Source: a virus
DNA: 37,004 bases
IMG/VR virus record: IMGVR_UViG_3300037502_002054
Location: 1 to 37,004 of that record
Strand: one strand, 5' to 3'
Position numbers and translations under genes: made by a program. The notes below the pieces were generated by a model, which was given only the letters and a program-made list of their open reading frames with translations, was not told the DNA's origin and ran no database searches. Shown piece after piece: positions 1,315-37,004 of this stretch (position 1 is its first letter; every line of letters begins with the position of its first letter).

Positions 1315-1370
1315 CAAACCTAATAGTTATTTCAACACGAAATCAACAACAAGTGTTAAAAAGTGTTAAA
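1315..1370 (-). promoter_or_regulatory. module promoter A with tandem 10-bp operator
   Basis: Read on the minus strand, the -7 box TAGGTTTG is at 1315-1322 and the extended upstream box TTTCGTGTTGA is at 1332-1342. Two exact head-to-tail copies of AAGTGTTAAA (plus-strand sense) lie at 1351-1360 and 1361-1370. TAnnTTTG is the established Bacteroidota -7 consensus. The module drives the HTH gene 831-1277. Confidence 0.75.
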
Positions 1371-1377
1371 ACAAAAA

Positions 1378-1394
1378 AGCCCCGATGTGGGGCT
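1378..1394 (-). terminator. intrinsic terminator after holin gene
   Basis: On the minus strand AGCCCC, a five-base loop, then GGGGCT is followed by TTTTTTG. It ends the transcript from the capsid and holin side and abuts the operator of module A. Confidence 0.8.
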
Positions 1395-4850: not shown

Positions 4851-5001
4851 CAAAGTTACAAACTTTTGCCAGTATTTACGCTTACTGGCAATTTTAAGTC
4901 CCTCACCAATGGTGAGATAATTCGCCAAAAGGTAAAGAATAATTGACCTTTGGCGAAATATACCCTATCGGTGATTAGTTCACATCTATTGGTTTGGTAT
5001 A
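4851..5001 (-). promoter_or_regulatory. promoter with an array of palindromes
   Basis: The -7 box TAACTTTG is at 4851-4858 on the minus strand. Four different dyads follow in a row: GCCAGTA/TACTGGC (4868-4889), CTCACCA-A-TGGTGAG (4902-4916), TTCGCCAAA-AGGT/ACCTTTGGCGAA with one bulge (4921-4957), and TATACC/GGTATA (4959-5001). The direct repeat ATATACCC occurs at 4958-4965 and 4999-5006. The first dyad covers the usual RNA-polymerase contact region. No ORF lies here. Confidence 0.55.
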
Positions 5002-5072: not shown

Positions 5073-5243
5073 CTAAGGAAGCGACTCCCAAGACATATCA
5101 TTGTAATTAATTCCTTTTTCGTAACCGATTTGGACTTTCTTTTTTTCAAGTCGTTCTTGATGGTCAACATCGGGGTCATTTGAAATTGAAAGCAAGTAAA
5201 GGACTGCTCCTGTAACGTGATTGTAAAGTCTATAATGTGTCAT
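5073..5243 (-). CDS. small hypothetical protein, 56 aa
   Basis: An ATG at 5243 opens a 56-codon frame (MTHYRLYNHVTGAVLYLLSI ... NYNDMSWESLP) that ends at a TAG 31 bases before a UUCG terminator. The sequence reads as real protein: an N-terminal beta hairpin, then a charged helix DPDVDHQERLEKKKVQ. I do not recognise the family. It is the second gene of a cassette driven by the module promoter at 5409-5454. Confidence 0.6.
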   Translation of the reverse strand: MTHYRLYNHVTGAVLYLLSISNDPDVDHQERLEKKKVQIGYEKGINYNDMSWESLP

Positions 5244-5248
5244 TTTGA

Positions 5249-5404
5249 TTAAAATTTGTAGAAGCCCAGCCGATAACAGCCATTTTGCGTAATGGCAGGT
5301 TCAGTGGTAACTTCAAGGTTTGTAATTCTATTTAACATCTGTGCTTGTTTGAAAATTTGTGCTTCTAATCTGCCACTGACAGCAAGCGGCAAACCGTTAT
5401 TCAC
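5249..5404 (-). CDS. candidate small protein with GTG start, 51 aa
   Basis: The open frame encodes NNGLPLAVSGRLEAQIFKQA followed by QMLNRITNLEVTTEPAITQN and GCYRLGFYKF, and ends five bases before the next gene. The only ATG (5338) would give 29 aa and discard a protein-like N-terminal half. A GTG at 5402-5404 lies about five bases beyond the -7 box TATGTTTG (5409-5416), so translation would be nearly leaderless. A TTG at 5419 is another option. The ORF is likely real because of its composition and tight spacing, but the start is unsettled. Confidence 0.45.
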   Translation of the reverse strand: MNNGLPLAVSGRLEAQIFKQAQMLNRITNLEVTTEPAITQNGCYRLGFYKF

Positions 5405-5408
5405 ACCC

Positions 5409-5454
5409 CAAACATACAAACTATTTCAATGCGAAAATGTTAATAAGTGTTAAA
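5409..5454 (-). promoter_or_regulatory. module promoter B
   Basis: The -7 box TATGTTTG is at 5409-5416 and the upstream box ATTTTCGCATTGA at 5426-5438 on the minus strand. One full AAGTGTTAAA and a decayed partner (TTAAT) lie at 5440-5454. It drives the two small genes 5249-5404 and 5073-5243. Confidence 0.75.
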
Positions 5455-5460
5455 AGAAAA

Positions 5461-5480
5461 AGCCCCACCGAAGTAGGGCT
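5461..5480 (-). terminator. UUCG-capped terminator after scaffold gene
   Basis: The minus-strand RNA is AGCCCUAC-UUCG-GUGGGGCU, with one wobble pair, followed by UUUUUC. It lies between the scaffold gene and promoter module B. Confidence 0.8.
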
Positions 5481-5514: not shown

Positions 5515-5590
5515 AAAATCACATTATAGTGTATTTTATTGGTCTGTATGTTTTGAAACGCAAGACGAAACGGGCAAAATCACATTATAG
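5515..5590. repeat. pair of 15-bp direct repeats
   Basis: AAAATCACATTATAG occurs at 5515-5529 and 5576-5590, 61 bp apart, each followed by TGT or CGT. The core is nearly palindromic (CAC-ATTATA-GTG). Both copies are in the untranslated tail of the scaffold transcript. Confidence 0.7.
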
Positions 5591-5604
5591 CGTGAATCCG
5601 CCGC

Positions 5605-10703: not shown

Positions 10704-10886
10704 CTAAAGCCCGCCATTATCCAAAATCCATGTTAATTTATCGACCATAAATTGCGCTTCTGAACGCTTGCCGTCCCAATAAGCGTGCTGTGCATCAACT
10801 TCTTTATTTAAGTCACGGTTGTACTCAAATGATGCTGCCCTAAGCTCCATTTCTTTGATTAACTCTTTCAGTACTTCTTCTTCCAT
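10704..10886 (-). CDS. small helical hypothetical protein, 60 aa
   Basis: I chose ATG 10886 (MEEEVLKELIKEMELRAASF), four bases after the stop of the preceding gene. The earlier in-frame ATG at 10922 would overlap that gene. The protein is almost wholly helical and strongly charged, with a central DAQHAYWDGKRSEAQFMVDK segment. No family is recognised. It is the second gene of the cassette driven by module promoter C, closed by a strong terminator. Confidence 0.6.
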   Translation of the reverse strand: MEEEVLKELIKEMELRAASFEYNRDLNKEVDAQHAYWDGKRSEAQFMVDKLTWILDNGGL

Positions 10887-10890
10887 TTTA

Positions 10891-11166
10891 TTAAGCGTTT
10901 TGTTGGTTAAAAGCATCAACATAGTCCTTCAAATGCACCAAGTCCACAATCGGGATTCGGTCAAAAATATGCCCGCTTTCGGGTTCAATCACCAGCAATT
11001 CACAAAGCCGTGTAGTTTGCTGCCAGTCAAGCATCAGCGTTGGCGTAAGCATCTTTGTGAAGATTGTGTACGGGTAGCCGTGCATTTTTTCAAACACTTC
11101 ATCGTGCCCGTCTTCGGCGGTAAAGCCAAGGGCCATGATGTCGCAGTAGTTAATTTGTTGTTGCAT
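10891..11166 (-). CDS. conserved Bacteroidota-phage small protein, 91 aa
   Basis: The protein begins MQQQINYCDIMALGFTAEDG and contains YPYTIFTKMLTPTLMLDWQQ and TTRLCELLVI, ending with LVHLKDYVDAF. This NYCDIM...GF...LDWxxTTRLCEL pattern is familiar from small uncharacterised proteins of Bacteroidota phages and prophages. The role is unknown. It is the first gene after module promoter C, with a predicted leader of about 12 bases, and precedes the 60-aa gene by four bases. Confidence 0.7.
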   Translation of the reverse strand: MQQQINYCDIMALGFTAEDGHDEVFEKMHGYPYTIFTKMLTPTLMLDWQQTTRLCELLVIEPESGHIFDRIPIVDLVHLKDYVDAFNQQNA

Positions 11167-11182: not shown

Positions 11183-11229
11183 CAAACCTACAAAGAATAT
11201 CAATGCGAAAATCTTAATAAGTGTTAAAA
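11183..11229 (-). promoter_or_regulatory. module promoter C
   Basis: On the minus strand the -7 box TAGGTTTG is at 11183-11190 and the upstream box ATTTTCGCATTGA at 11200-11212. One AAGTGTTAAA and a decayed partner are at 11214-11229. Its sequence is nearly identical to module B upstream of the spacer. Confidence 0.8.
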
Positions 11230-11235
11230 CAAAAA

Positions 11236-11253
11236 AGCCCCACCGAAGGGGCT
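11236..11253 (-). terminator. intrinsic terminator
   Basis: The minus strand reads AGCCCC, loop TTCGGT, GGGGCT, then TTTTTTG. It ends the 11275-11481 transcript directly upstream of module promoter C. Confidence 0.85.
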
Positions 11254-11274: not shown

Positions 11275-11481
11275 TTAAATTGATACTATTCTGTACCCAA
11301 AGTGCTGTACAAAAGTATCGAATGTGTTTCTACCCATTCTTTGTAAAATATTGTTTTTAAACCAAAGATACTTTTCTGTGCATCTTTCTATTTCAACTTG
11401 AACGGGCTGATTCATTTTTTCTGGGGACAAATTTACCCTTATTTCTACTATTGAACCCTTTTTTAAATCTGAAGCTTTCAT
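11275..11481 (-). CDS. small hypothetical protein, 68 aa
   Basis: The protein reads MKASDLKKGSIVEIRVNLSP and ends with FDTFVQHFGYRIVSI. The beta-rich pattern with GSIVEIRV suggests a small barrel, but no family can be named. It forms a single-gene unit: module promoter D upstream (11513-11588) and the terminator at 11236-11253 downstream. This unit follows the probable tail-tube gene and is unrelated to it in character. Confidence 0.6.
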   Translation of the reverse strand: MKASDLKKGSIVEIRVNLSPEKMNQPVQVEIERCTEKYLWFKNNILQRMGRNTFDTFVQHFGYRIVSI

Positions 11482-11512: not shown

Positions 11513-11588
11513 CAATATTAATCCTTTTTTCAATACGAAAATCAGGCACACAAAATTACCCCCACTATTTTAACACTTTTTAACACTT
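11513..11588 (-). promoter_or_regulatory. module promoter D, operator inverted
   Basis: On the minus strand the -7 box is TAATATTG (11513-11520) and the upstream box ATTTTCGTATTGA (11530-11542). Two head-to-tail 10-mers TTTAACACTT (plus-strand sense) lie at 11569-11578 and 11579-11588. They have the opposite orientation to those in modules A-C and sit about 20 bp farther upstream. It drives gene 11275-11481. Confidence 0.75.
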
Positions 11589-11600
11589 GGCAACAAAAAA

Positions 11601-11618
11601 GCCCCACCGAAGCAGGGC
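11601..11618 (-). terminator. UUCG-capped terminator
   Basis: The minus-strand RNA GCCCUGC-UUCG-GUGGGGC pairs through two wobble positions and is followed by UUUUUUG. It lies 26 bases after the stop of gene 11645-12175. Confidence 0.8.
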
Positions 11619-12175: not shown

Positions 12176-12196
12176 AGTTTTTTATTTAAAGTTTAT

Positions 12197-12204
12197 CAAA
12201 GTTA
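12197..12204 (-). promoter_or_regulatory. promoter of gene 11645-12175
   Basis: TAACTTTG on the minus strand is a full match to the TAnnTTTG -7 consensus. The predicted start near 12192 leaves a leader of about 17 bases. No extended module box or AAGTGTTAAA element is present, so this promoter belongs to a different class. Confidence 0.6.
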
Positions 12205-12231
12205 AGAACGCATACCCATACTTTCGTGTAA

Positions 12232-12261
12232 TTGTCGTTATAATGCTAACTTTGTCGTTAT
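12232..12261 (+). promoter_or_regulatory. promoter and operator of plus-strand HTH gene
   Basis: The plus-strand -7 box TAACTTTG is at 12247-12254. Exact 10-bp repeats TTGTCGTTAT lie at 12232-12241 and 12252-12261, 20 bp or two helical turns apart, flanking and overlapping the box. The start codon at 12260 lies inside the second copy, so the message is nearly leaderless. This is a natural site for autorepression by the HTH product. Confidence 0.6.
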
Positions 12262-12619
12262 GGACATGAGCCATTTGTCGCTTGCTGAACTTTTTGACCT
12301 TAAATCTGCGGTGAATAAGGCTATAAATCACCGCATTTCATCCGCTGCCGATGACTTTATTTGGCAACTTTGCGCCCATTACGGTGTTGATTTGAGCCAA
12401 TTCAAGCAAGCAAGTAGGCGGCAGTATGCAGATATTAAGCGCATCGCATCGTATTACTTCGTGTCGATGAAAGGTTTAAGCCAATCCGAAGCGGCAGAAA
12501 TAATCGGCATCAGTAGGGTAACCGTTGCCCAGCACGTGGCGAAGGTGCAGCACTACAAACGTTCAATCCCCGGCAAATGGTTTGCCATCTTTAATACAAT
12601 TCAATCAGTAACAAAATGA
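12260..12619 (+). CDS. HTH DNA-binding protein, DnaA-domain-IV-like
   Basis: The 119-aa protein starts MDMSHLSLAELFDLKSAVNK; a second ATG at 12266 is possible. The C-terminal half has DIKRIASYYFVSMKGLSQSE followed by AAEIIGISRVTVAQHVAKVQ. That resembles the DnaA C-terminal HTH or a sigma-region-4-like HTH. It overlaps the next plus-strand gene by four bases (ATGA), so both are co-translated. The 10-bp direct repeats around its promoter make self-regulation likely, though this is inferred. It stands divergent from gene 11645-12175. Confidence 0.7.
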   Translation: MDMSHLSLAELFDLKSAVNKAINHRISSAADDFIWQLCAHYGVDLSQFKQASRRQYADIKRIASYYFVSMKGLSQSEAAEIIGISRVTVAQHVAKVQHYKRSIPGKWFAIFNTIQSVTK

Positions 12620-23552: not shown

Positions 23553-24127
23553 TGTGCTTTGCTGAATTTGTTCAAATATACAGAAGAATCGGCAAAACAT
23601 GGCGATGAAATTTTTACATAAGCATCTTTCTTGCCAAGTATCGCACTCCACAACTTGGCACCAAACCATTTGCCGGGCCTTTCCCAATAACCCACCACGT
23701 TCAATTCGTAGTCGGTTTGAATGGTCACAACTGCTGACTTTTCGGGATGCACGGTTGCGGCAAATTTCATGCACATGGTGTCAAGTTTGAATGATTGGAT
23801 TGGGCATGGCAATGTTTCGATGTGCCACCTATCAACCTCTACCTCAAAGCTATCAATCTTGGTGCGCCACTTTGTGCGATACACGAATTCAACCCTACCA
23901 CCTTTAATGTTCAGGCTGTCCAGTAGCCGCTTGTTTTCGGCTTGTAATTGCTGGTTAGTCAATGTCAATGTTCGGGCGGTTGCCGATGCTGTCTGCTGAA
24001 TTGCATCGTAATTGCTGGCATGCCGTTCGGCTTCGGCCTTATAGTTACATGACTGCTTACCCAAGATGAAAGCGGCAATCAGGGCAATGATGCCCCAATG
24101 CCGCAGAATAAACCCAGTCCAGTTCAT
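23549..24127 (-). CDS. membrane-anchored coiled-coil protein, spanin-like
   Basis: Residues 5-23 (GFILRHWGIIALIAAFILGK) form one N-terminal transmembrane anchor. A coiled-coil region to about residue 75 (TARTLTLTNQQLQAENKRLL) and a beta-rich periplasmic domain with several cysteines follow. The shape is that of an inner-membrane spanin or Rz-like factor, which disrupts the outer membrane at lysis. It overlaps the phosphoesterase gene by four bases and lies about 1.1 kb downstream of the amidase, which supports a lysis role. No o-spanin lipoprotein was found. Bacteroidota phages have similar uncharacterised proteins. Confidence 0.55.
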   Translation of the reverse strand: MNWTGFILRHWGIIALIAAFILGKQSCNYKAEAERHASNYDAIQQTASATARTLTLTNQQLQAENKRLLDSLNIKGGRVEFVYRTKWRTKIDSFEVEVDRWHIETLPCPIQSFKLDTMCMKFAATVHPEKSAVVTIQTDYELNVVGYWERPGKWFGAKLWSAILGKKDAYVKISSPCFADSSVYLNKFSKAQ

Positions 24128-25158
24128 CGTACCTTGCGATTGTCAATCCTAAAATTCTCAACGCTGAAGCTGCCGTCTTCTTCGATTTCGACAATGGCCG
24201 CACCGTGATTCCACTTGGTGAAAGCGAATGGCCGATATGCTGGGCGCAAATCGCAAAGGCAACCCGTAGAAAAGCAAGCAACTCCTTTGCCGTTTAGGTC
24301 GCTTTCGTGATGCTCAGATGTTTGATGGTTGTGGCCAGCCAAGGTCGAAGCCTTGCCACGTAAGAACAACCCACGTGCTGGGTTTACCGGGCTAAAGATG
24401 CTATCCCCAAATTCGTGGCCATGTATTACGTTTAGTTTGCCGAACTTGGCTACCTGTTTGCTGTCGATTAACTCAATTTCAAATTCATCCAAGCCAAGGG
24501 CTTTCTTTAATTGCAAGCCGTCAAGGCCGTGCAGTTCAGGTGCGTTCTGCAAGATGTAACGTTCCCACCTGTCCTCATGGTTGCCCAACTTGTAATATAC
24601 ATCAACGCCAAGGTTTGAAATGCCCTCAAAGAAGTTTCTTGCCATGCCGACCTCAACAACGGCAGAAGTAATGGCGGGATCCTTCTCCCAACGGCTAATC
24701 TTGGCGAAGTCGATTACATCACCATTCAGGTAAATCCCGTCAATGCCTGATTTGAAGCCGTAATCAATTGCCGTTTCTAATGCCTCCAAAGAATGGTAAG
24801 GTATGTGAATGTCGGATAAGACCAAAACCTTGCGGTGATGTTTTGGCAAATGCCAGTCGGGCTTGCTGGTAGTTTCGCCACGCTGAATGAAATTTGCCAT
24901 ATATTCGCTGGGCTTCATTTCATCTCTAATAAACTCAGGGCGAAGTGTGCCCGATTTTTTCGCCCACTGTCTATTAAAATCTCCTACAGTTCCAATGCGA
25001 TACCTAATCGCCCTCCTTACACCGTCAATTTCTTTGTCGTTTTGCTCAAACAAGCCCGGGTTTTCGGCCACGATTTTTCTTGCTAATGTTCGGGCAAAGA
25101 ATCCCGGTTGTTGTTCATTAAGGTAAGCCTCAATGATTTCAATCTTTTGTTTACTCAT
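24124..25158 (-). CDS. metallophosphoesterase with N-terminal helical domain
   Basis: The calcineurin-like set of metal ligands is complete and in order: VLVLSDIHIPYH, LNGDVIDF, LGNHEDRWE, VIHGHEFG and AGHNHQT. About 100 helical residues come first and may bind nucleic acid or be structural. Enzymes of this kind hydrolyse phosphodiesters or phosphomonoesters; the substrate is unknown. The longest open frame would start at a TTG (25182) inside the promoter -7 box, so ATG 25158 or 25167 is preferred. The promoter is flanked by an inverted repeat. The gene overlaps the spanin-like gene by four bases. Confidence 0.85.
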   Translation of the reverse strand: MSKQKIEIIEAYLNEQQPGFFARTLARKIVAENPGLFEQNDKEIDGVRRAIRYRIGTVGDFNRQWAKKSGTLRPEFIRDEMKPSEYMANFIQRGETTSKPDWHLPKHHRKVLVLSDIHIPYHSLEALETAIDYGFKSGIDGIYLNGDVIDFAKISRWEKDPAITSAVVEVGMARNFFEGISNLGVDVYYKLGNHEDRWERYILQNAPELHGLDGLQLKKALGLDEFEIELIDSKQVAKFGKLNVIHGHEFGDSIFSPVNPARGLFLRGKASTLAGHNHQTSEHHESDLNGKGVACFSTGCLCDLRPAYRPFAFTKWNHGAAIVEIEEDGSFSVENFRIDNRKVR

Positions 25159-25171
25159 GGTTTCCATTTTT

Positions 25172-25210
25172 GGTTTAGCCAAATGTAGTTAAAATACAAT
25201 AGGCTAAACC
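25172..25210 (-). promoter_or_regulatory. promoter enclosed in a 9-bp inverted repeat
   Basis: The minus-strand -7 box TACATTTG lies at 25180-25187. Perfect arms GGTTTAGCC (25172-25180) and GGCTAAACC (25202-25210) bracket it with a 21-bp spacer. This could be an operator over the phosphoesterase promoter, or a hairpin after the amidase gene; a T run follows on the plus strand only. Confidence 0.55.
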
Positions 25211-34652: not shown

Positions 34653-34883
34653 TTAAAGGTTAGTAGGTTTTGACCAGTTAATTCGGTAGCTTGAATTGTT
34701 GTGCTTTTCGATTTCAAAGCCGTTGGTTATCAGCTTTTGAACATCTTCATCAGCAATCGGGTTAAATACCCAGCAGTGAAATTCGCCCTGCTTAGCTTTT
34801 TCAAGGCACATGGCTTCGATTTCGGCCATGGTAATTCTTGGCTTGCTGGTGGCCAAGTTGTAAAGGTGATTTGCGTAGATCAT
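34653..34883 (-). CDS. small hypothetical protein, 76 aa
   Basis: The protein reads MIYANHLYNLATSKPRITMA, with FHCWVFNPIADEDVQKLITN and GFEIEKHNNSSYRINWSKP. The mixed alpha/beta pattern with NGFEI...YRINW resembles small phage proteins of unknown role. It lies 18 bases after gene 34902-35081 and 17 bases before gene 33835-34635, in the operon from module promoter E. Confidence 0.6.
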   Translation of the reverse strand: MIYANHLYNLATSKPRITMAEIEAMCLEKAKQGEFHCWVFNPIADEDVQKLITNGFEIEKHNNSSYRINWSKPTNL

Positions 34884-34901
34884 GGTGTTTGTGTTTATGG
34901 G

Positions 34902-35081
34902 TTAAAGGTTATGATAAGTGTATTCTTTGTTAAATTCTTTTTGCAATTCTTCTATTTTGTTTTTTGCAGCTTTGGTTTCTTCTCTTAAAAAATCAGCATC
35001 AATTTCTTTGGTGTTTTTAAGCATTTCTATCCTTTTTTGCTCTTTGATAATTTGGCTGTGTAGTGTTTCTAACTTTGTCAT
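34902..35081 (-). CDS. small coiled-coil protein, 59 aa
   Basis: The ATG at 35081 opens MTKLETLHSQIIKEQKRIEM, then LKNTKEIDADFLREETKAAK and NKIEELQKEFNKEYTYHNL. It is a single long charged helix, likely to dimerise as a coiled coil. It is the first gene after module promoter E, with a leader of about 18 bases. No function can be assigned. Confidence 0.6.
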   Translation of the reverse strand: MTKLETLHSQIIKEQKRIEMLKNTKEIDADFLREETKAAKNKIEELQKEFNKEYTYHNL

Positions 35082-35103: not shown

Positions 35104-35179
35104 CAAACCTAAAAAGAATATCAATACGAAAATCAGATCTACTAAAATACACCCAGCATTTTAACACTTTTTAACACTT
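35104..35179 (-). promoter_or_regulatory. module promoter E, operator inverted
   Basis: The minus-strand -7 box TAGGTTTG is at 35104-35111 and the upstream box ATTTTCGTATTGA at 35121-35133. Two TTTAACACTT 10-mers (plus-strand sense) are at 35160-35169 and 35170-35179, in the same inverted orientation and spacing as in module D. It drives genes from 35081 leftward. Confidence 0.8.
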
Positions 35180-35196: not shown

Positions 35197-35218
35197 GCCC
35201 CAACCTTTCGGCAGGGGC
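35197..35218 (-). terminator. GAAA-capped terminator after ssb
   Basis: On the minus strand GCCCC-TG-CC, loop GAAA, GG-TT-GGGGC is followed by TTTTTCTTTTT. It lies 24 bases after the SSB stop and ends the recombination operon. Confidence 0.85.
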
Positions 35219-35241
35219 AATTTCACACCTAACACACTATC

Positions 35242-35929: not shown

Positions 35930-36400
35930 TTAGTTGTAATTAATTGACGTGAAGATAGGTGTATTTTTATTCATTTCCAATTCTTGCATGACCATTTTTA
36001 TATGCTCGCAAAATTCAATGCAGCGCATGTAGTATTGCGGGTCGGCCAAGATAGAATCCTGCACAAACTTGATGCTGTGCATGACCGTTGCATGCTCACA
36101 ATTCAGCATTTTGCCAATGTCTTGAAGGCTCATTGATGTAGCACAGCGCATCGCAAACCTCATGGCATGCTTGAAGTGTTTTACTTCCCTAAACCTTCGC
36201 TTGCTGTATGCGGCTTCGTAAGGCAACCCCCAGTAATCGGCAGCGGCTTTGATGACCGCCCGTTGATGTTCGGTGCGCAAATGCATCTTAAAGAATTCAT
36301 CGTTTCGGCTGTTGATTATCCGGTCGATTTCGGTGCGAATCTTCAACAAGCTATCGTTGTCCTGTTTCAAAAGATAGCGTTCAAATTGTCGTTCAGTCAT
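35930..36400 (-). CDS. DnaA domain IV-like DNA-binding protein
   Basis: The 156-aa protein has a coiled N-terminal region and a C-terminal HTH: HFKHAMRFAMRCATSMSLQD, then IGKMLNCEHATVMHSIKFVQ. The last part matches the DnaA signature with HxTVxHxxxxI, which recognises DnaA boxes in the host protein. No AAA+ domain is present. It could bind a phage origin or compete for host DnaA sites. It overlaps the exonuclease stop by four bases. Confidence 0.8.
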   Translation of the reverse strand: MTERQFERYLLKQDNDSLLKIRTEIDRIINSRNDEFFKMHLRTEHQRAVIKAAADYWGLPYEAAYSKRRFREVKHFKHAMRFAMRCATSMSLQDIGKMLNCEHATVMHSIKFVQDSILADPQYYMRCIEFCEHIKMVMQELEMNKNTPIFTSINYN

Positions 36401-37004
36401 TGTAATTGTGGTAAAAGTTCAACTTCGATAATGTTTCGGCACATTTGTACCCGTTCGTAGATAGCCTGAATGGTTGCCTCGTCATAGTAAATATCAAACA
36501 CCTTCAACCGATATTTGGCTGGGATATTTGTCAGGTCAAGTTGTATGCCGCCAAGTTCTTCAGGTGTCGGCATTAAAACGTACACCAACTGGGCCCGTTT
36601 AAGGCCCAACAGGTGCATGTACCCCTGAAGCTGATACCAATATCCTTTCGGTGGGTTTCGTTCCCACATTGGGAAGGTAAACACGTCCCAAGGGCATTTA
36701 ATGTCAACAACCGTGTTGCCGTGAATAACGTCAGGTGTGCCAGTTAAGAATTCGTTTTCAAAGAAGGTTTCGTTTTTCTCAGGCATAAACCAGTTAAGGT
36801 GCTGGCCAGCGAATTCAATGGCTTCATCTTCTACCATTCGGCCCTTCTCCATAGGGCGGCTGTCAATCTGCTTACGCACCCCGTAGATTTGTTCGATAAT
36901 CCAATCTTGTAGGTACGAATAGCATGTTGCACCTGCGGTGTCCTTCCCCCTGCCATTGGCCATAATTTGACCAATGGCGCTGCATCTGATTTTGAAATCT
37001 TGCA
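36397..37004 (-). CDS. YqaJ-type exonuclease, start at window edge
   Basis: The visible frame begins QDFKIRCSAIGQIMANGRGK, a typical start for phage YqaJ/lambda-exo-like nucleases (PD-(D/E)XK). An ATG at 36963 is internal. Catalytic elements are the E of MVEDEAIE, GTPDVI and VDIKCPWD, then a Y-x-x-QLQGYM helix. The nuclease digests one strand of DNA ends for the annealing protein. The first base of its ATG would be base 1 if the genome is circular, giving 202 aa. It overlaps the DnaA-like gene by four bases. Confidence 0.9.
   Translation of the reverse strand, partial: QDFKIRCSAIGQIMANGRGKDTAGATCYSYLQDWIIEQIYGVRKQIDSRPMEKGRMVEDEAIEFAGQHLNWFMPEKNETFFENEFLTGTPDVIHGNTVVDIKCPWDVFTFPMWERNPPKGYWYQLQGYMHLLGLKRAQLVYVLMPTPEELGGIQLDLTNIPAKYRLKVFDIYYDEATIQAIYERVQMCRNIIEVELLPQLQ

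Follow-up and report, generated by a model that had tools for sequence, protein, structure and literature searches.

The PhoP box of Bacillus consists of TTAACA repeats, and the sites of OmpR/PhoB-family regulators are direct repeats. The phage modules described here likewise contained tandem TTAAC half-sites about one helical turn apart, located close to or upstream of the −33/−35 region, but their period was 10 bp instead of 11 bp and both orientations were used. In mycobacteriophages, many near-identical sites are dispersed by small genes, such as the stoperators of L5 and the start-associated sequences of cluster K. Many near-identical control sites were also dispersed beside small genes in the present phage, where, in contrast, a promoter was combined with a phased upstream site matching the rule found in host chromosomes. 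Furthermore, the control of phage genes by host PhoB through TTAA-type boxes has been described in cyanophages, for instance for pstS of P-SSM2 and in the Synechococcus phage S-PM2d, both under host PhoBR, and binding was shown for some of the boxes (PMC10976474). Phage promoters with TTAA-containing boxes for a host two-component system are also predicted in our case. The cyanophage boxes are degenerate and irregularly placed, whereas the element reported here was near-invariant, held in fixed helical phase, and present several times in each presumed Bacteroidota phage. Little is known about the activator sites of Bacteroidota, and a literature search, which misses most subscription journals, found no phased GTTAA/TTAAC sites, no Pho box, and no RprY site described in this phylum.

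The window, which was the whole stretch of DNA analyzed, was the 37,004-base IMG/VR virus record IMGVR_UViG_3300037502_002054, a phage contig. It was related through the portal protein to 22 viral contigs, 18 of them at 85–98% identity and four (G019–G022) at about 45%. No phage record in INPHARED was similar in DNA or portal protein, and the whole module gave short, low-scoring matches only in the same collection. The portal search in chromosomes was limited to Chitinophagales, in which the relatives were weak (best E-value 1.6e-24). The promoter type and these weak portal matches point to a member of Bacteroidota as the probable host, perhaps from the order Chitinophagales. The gene order (the 1–545 gene, then the exonuclease, the DnaA-like protein, and SSB) spanned the window ends (1–545 and 36397–37004), which suggests that the ends meet and that the contig is a circularly permuted, near-complete genome. 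In the structural region, a metallophosphoesterase gene (24124–25182; PHROG 221, 1.7e-41) adjoined the amidase/endolysin gene.

A preliminary description of the window had listed five minus-strand modules in the order terminator, AAGTGTTAAA element(s), box, −7 box, and small gene, and all five were present. Each was composed of a GC-rich terminator, one or two copies of AAGTGTTAAA, a box close to ATTTTCGTATTGA, 9 nt, a −7 box, and a small gene, with all features on the minus strand. At site 1, the intrinsic terminator of the upstream operon (1376–1396) was followed by the putative activator element TTTAACACTTTTTAACACTT (1351–1370) in reverse orientation, with the spacing TTAAC-N32-TA of the −7 box, then by the −33 region box GATTTCGTGTTGA (1332–1344) and the −7 box TAGGTTTG (1315–1322). 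The first gene behind it (831–1277) encoded 148 aa and appeared winged-helix-like by eye, without a confident Pfam match. At site 2, the terminator (5461–5480) preceded the element TTTAACACTTATTAACATTT (5435–5454), also in reverse orientation with TTAAC-N22-TA, which was overlapped by the box ATTTTCGCATTGA (5426–5438); the −7 box TATGTTTG (5409–5416) and two small ORFs of 56 aa each as listed (5073–5419) came next. With its listed TTG start at 5419, the first ORF would overlap this −7 box, so its true start lies further in. Site 3 contained a terminator (11236–11253), the element TTTAACACTTATTAAGATTT (11209–11228) in reverse orientation with a degenerate second half and N22 to the TA, the box ATTTTCGCATTGA (11200–11212), the −7 box TAGGTTTG (11183–11190), and two small genes of 91 and 72 aa (10704–11166).

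At sites 4 and 5, the element was AAGTGTTAAAAAGTGTTAAA in forward orientation with GTTAA-N49-TA (11569–11588 and 35160–35179, respectively), and the box was ATTTTCGTATTGA (11530–11542 and 35121–35133). The site 4 terminator was a stem-loop (11598–11618), and that of site 5, read from the sequence, was located downstream of the SSB gene (35197–35219). The −7 boxes were TAATATTG (11513–11520) at site 4 and TAGGTTTG (35104–35111) at site 5. A small gene of 68 aa (11275–11481) followed site 4, while site 5 was followed by a gene of 59 aa, which was not found in the relatives, then one of 76 aa (34653–35081), and then the replication genes. The 76-aa gene stood directly behind this module in many relatives.

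The exact AAGTGTTAAA occurred eight times in the window, compared with a mean of 0.17 and a maximum of 2 in 200 dinucleotide shuffles, and the exact TTTTCGyATTGA occurred four times, compared with a shuffle mean of 0.015 and a maximum of 1 (dinucleotide shuffles). On the coding strand, the repeat pair was TTTAACACTT-TTTAACACTT at sites 1–3 and, with inverted orientation, AAGTGTTAAA-AAGTGTTAAA at sites 4 and 5. A 10-bp direct repeat was present at all five sites, one half being degenerate at sites 2 and 3. The site 1 box, ATTTCGTGTTGA, had two mismatches to the consensus given earlier, and good boxes in the window alone numbered four. The −7 sequence TAnnTTTG was exact at sites 1, 2, 3, and 5, as had been claimed, but not at site 4, which had TAATATTG. 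Moreover, the gap between the box and the −7 box, previously given as 9–10 bp, measured exactly 9 bp in each of the 40 distinct module types that were collected.

Several other features were observed in the window. Between a structural gene and the site 2 terminator, the near-identical pair CACTATAATGTGATTTT / CGCTATAATGTGATTTT was located on the minus strand at 5515–5600. Palindromes that were perfect or nearly so (TTGCCAGTA...TACTGGCAA, CTCACCAATGGTGAG, and TTCGCCAAAAGG...CCTTTGGCGAA) were clustered at 4860–4980, upstream of a gene of 61 aa. The intergenic region from which the plus-strand HTH gene and a conserved gene of the minus strand diverge (12176–12259) contained TAACTTTG −7 boxes without the GTTAA repeat. 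The structural genes seem to have promoters of another class.

The promoters of the Bacteroidota primary sigma factor possess a −7 box, TAnnTTTG, at −12 to −5 (PMC9723704). This box is common to the phage modules, which differ in the long phage-specific box in the −33 region (ATTTTsGTATTGA) and in the upstream tandem element. The long box had been described as far longer than the usual −33 TTTG of Bacteroidota promoters, and in host genomes it was rare: 299 genomes gave 13 matches, compared with 1 for the control, and when one mismatch was allowed, 27 matches against 8 controls were found in 30 other genomes among the matches listed. A role of this box in host promoters at large was therefore rejected. 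The TTTT/TTTsG of the phage box was placed about 15–17 nt before the TA, which would equal the lower limit of the usual TTTG/TTG distance or fall short of it. The expected conservation of the box in related phages was observed in the close relatives but not in the four distant ones; these had no long box, yet in them the repeat still stood N22, N27, or N32 from the −7 box. The conserved control element therefore seems to be the repeat and not the box.

The element-to-box distances in the window and its close relatives were 4/5, 15, or 26 nt in the forward orientation and −4 or 6 nt in the reverse orientation. Measured to the TA of the −7 box, the spacing was GTTAA-N27/28, N38, or N49 forward and TTAAC-N22 or N32 reverse. 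Spacers of equal length could be unrelated in sequence, and the site 4 locus differed among the relatives by exactly 11 nt in length. When the gap was left free in a scan of all IMG/VR contigs, only gaps of 7, 8, 18, and 29 were found forward (allowed range 1–31), and only gaps of 6 or 16 were found reverse (allowed range 0–28), the one exception in these scans being a clear chance match within a coding sequence. These gaps are equivalent to the spacings given above. The steps of 10–11 bases correspond to one helical turn, suggesting that the element acts from a single helix face, like the site of an activator that touches RNA polymerase. The element kept a fixed helical phase to the promoter, as do the sites of the OmpR/PhoB family.

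UP elements are rich in A+T, keep a helical phase, and can act from several turns, and the repeat has the same three properties. It could accordingly be UP-like, contacted by the alpha subunit of RNA polymerase through its C-terminal domain and independent of an activator. However, the G and C positions were near-invariant in both halves of the repeat, and many host sites preceded two-component and phosphate genes, and this reading is considered improbable. Another possibility is that the repeat is a stoperator-like repressor operator, so that the regulon is silenced instead of activated. In mycobacteriophage L5, dispersed stoperator copies are located next to terminators and promoters; several dispersed copies adjoined terminators and promoters here, and the element overlapped the box at the reverse N22 spacing. 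Nevertheless, sites whose centers are about 60–70 bp ahead of the start are poorly placed to block the polymerase, and simple repression does not need whole-turn phasing, which makes an operator very improbable. No integrase or repressor family was found in the scan of most window ORFs, among which many small ORFs were without a known family.

The modules were kept in the related contigs with quantized spacing, in agreement with the earlier proposal of a dispersed, selected regulon. A total of 64 modules were counted in the window and 18 close relatives, and the first genes behind them formed 28 families, mostly of very short proteins. Several of the module genes of the window were absent from nearly all relatives. 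These results indicated that the control module stays the same whereas the gene that follows it varies. The 28 families and the small genes missing from most relatives would also be consistent with a module kept mainly as a recombination linker for swapping small genes. However, neither whole-turn spacing through changes of the spacer nor a match to the host promoter rule is needed for a linker, and we regard linkage as the main function as most improbable; it can be a by-product of activation through a host regulator, the explanation preferred here. The 20-base element was matched in 22 of the 22 relatives at three or fewer mismatches, and some weak matches in the four distant relatives were in unrelated context. 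In two further viral contigs (L126 and L150), exact AAGTGTTAAA pairs were located behind terminators and upstream of TTGACA-like promoters, a different promoter type. These pairs may reflect a similar site that serves an unrelated purpose.

The exact element gave 47 stretches in a genome collection of 84,980 species, mostly in Bacteroidota and some of them before sensor kinases. For the forward orientation, GTTAA-N5/6-GTTAA followed by TAnnTTTG at 13–43 was searched in 199 Chitinophagales genomes, a range exceeded by the N49 of two of the five window sites. Exact duplicates were removed from the host matches, and orthologous sites were included. Among the matches listed, the distance was 26–29 in 62 and 37–38 in 23 of 140 distinct forward matches. 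For tandem TTAAC in the reverse orientation, 49 of the 145 matches listed were at 21–23 and 42 were at 32–33; these peaks were sharp, with almost nothing between them in the same set. The reverse peaks at 22 and 32 had been predicted from the phage ahead of the reverse search and were borne out. The best periods in Chitinophagales were about 11.0 forward and 9.9 reverse, the same steps as in the phage. The same peaks were found in Flavobacteriales, and the distribution in a gammaproteobacterial family was flat (p = 0.20). In addition, about 14/22 downstream families were in phase, compared with 7/31 expected (p about 4e-5), for 30 forward loci grouped by eye. The period of the repeat itself was 10 bp in the phage compared with 11 at many host sites.

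Membrane sensor kinases were encoded directly downstream of many host sites, and coordinate comparison showed that, in a number of genomes, these kinases were followed by OmpR-type regulators. The other genes behind host sites included an OmpR/PhoB-type regulator gene, the PhoX phosphatase, the PHO4 phosphate transporter, MoxR ATPases, and TonB-dependent receptors. One set of reverse host loci was hand-picked among the in-phase matches and represents kinds of targets, not frequencies. Of the roughly 21 PhoB-like genes that were readable, a minority had a clear tandem site, which was exact in three and degenerate in a few. The auto-control of two-component operons, together with the phosphate genes, points to OmpR/PhoB-family response regulators.

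Recognition by a phage-encoded factor had been suggested in the preliminary description, but the 831–1277 product was found in one of the 22 relatives, compared with repeat matches in all 22, and it was therefore rejected as the regulator. Two other small, conserved DNA-binding proteins of the phage might bind the repeat and time the phage promoters, namely an orphan DnaA domain-IV-like protein (35930–36400, minus strand; Pfam Bac_DnaA_C, 3.5e-11) and a small sigma-4/HTH-like protein (12260–12619, plus strand), which opens the only plus-strand gene pair. Both were present in close relatives wherever the contig covered the locus, and the recognition-helix motif of the DnaA-like protein was kept between two phage groups. 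Moreover, TTTAACAC and the DnaA box, TTATCCACA, have TT...CAC in common. However, both proteins were undetected in G019–G022, which keep the element and its phase, and the same architecture was carried by host chromosomes without the phage; such a regulator is therefore unlikely. DnaA boxes as the element itself gave no match, the canonical DnaA boxes of the window being located elsewhere. The N-termini of the DnaA-like and HTH proteins looked alike by eye, and a glycosyltransferase-8 gene followed the HTH gene on the plus strand.

The explanation preferred here is that the phage has probably captured the sites of a host OmpR/PhoB-family response regulator, giving insulated, activator-dependent promoters. 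It draws on comparison of the module anatomy, its conservation, the quantized spacing, the rule in host chromosomes, and the kinds of genes behind host sites. Since the spacing rules of the modules match those in the chromosomes of likely hosts, a host stress or nutrient sensor would most likely switch the phage genes on. The terminator would shield each module from the upstream operon, and the tandem 10-bp repeat (core GTTAA/TTAAC) is the putative binding site of the host regulator, which would bind a fixed helix face and recruit the host RNA polymerase with the primary sigma factor at TAnnTTTG. If only the helix face matters, the site may move one or two turns upstream (N27, N38, and N49) or flip (N22 and N32). 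The phage would have copied this host architecture to several places, where it would drive small accessory genes that are quickly exchanged, as well as the replication/recombination operons, while the host regulator is active. We infer that a response regulator binds and activates at these sites and that one regulator could serve both orientations. OmpR/PhoB-type activators do not usually read one site in both orientations, and the two orientations may represent two or more regulators. Candidate inducing signals would be a shortage of phosphate, acting through a PhoB-like regulator, or envelope stress, acting through an RprY-like regulator.

It is possible, and is put forward tentatively, that tandem GTTAA/TTAAC at whole-turn distances from TAnnTTTG is an activator architecture which is widespread in Bacteroidota, has so far gone undescribed, and is shared by several response regulators, and that it serves this phage lineage as a portable promoter cassette placing dozens of interchangeable accessory genes under host stress/phosphate sensing. 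If so, a simple spacing rule would find the targets of response regulators in any Bacteroidota genome or phage. The sensing of phosphate or envelope stress by these phages, so far shown for cyanophages, would become testable, and the accessory genes of the phages would be tied to the physiology of the host.
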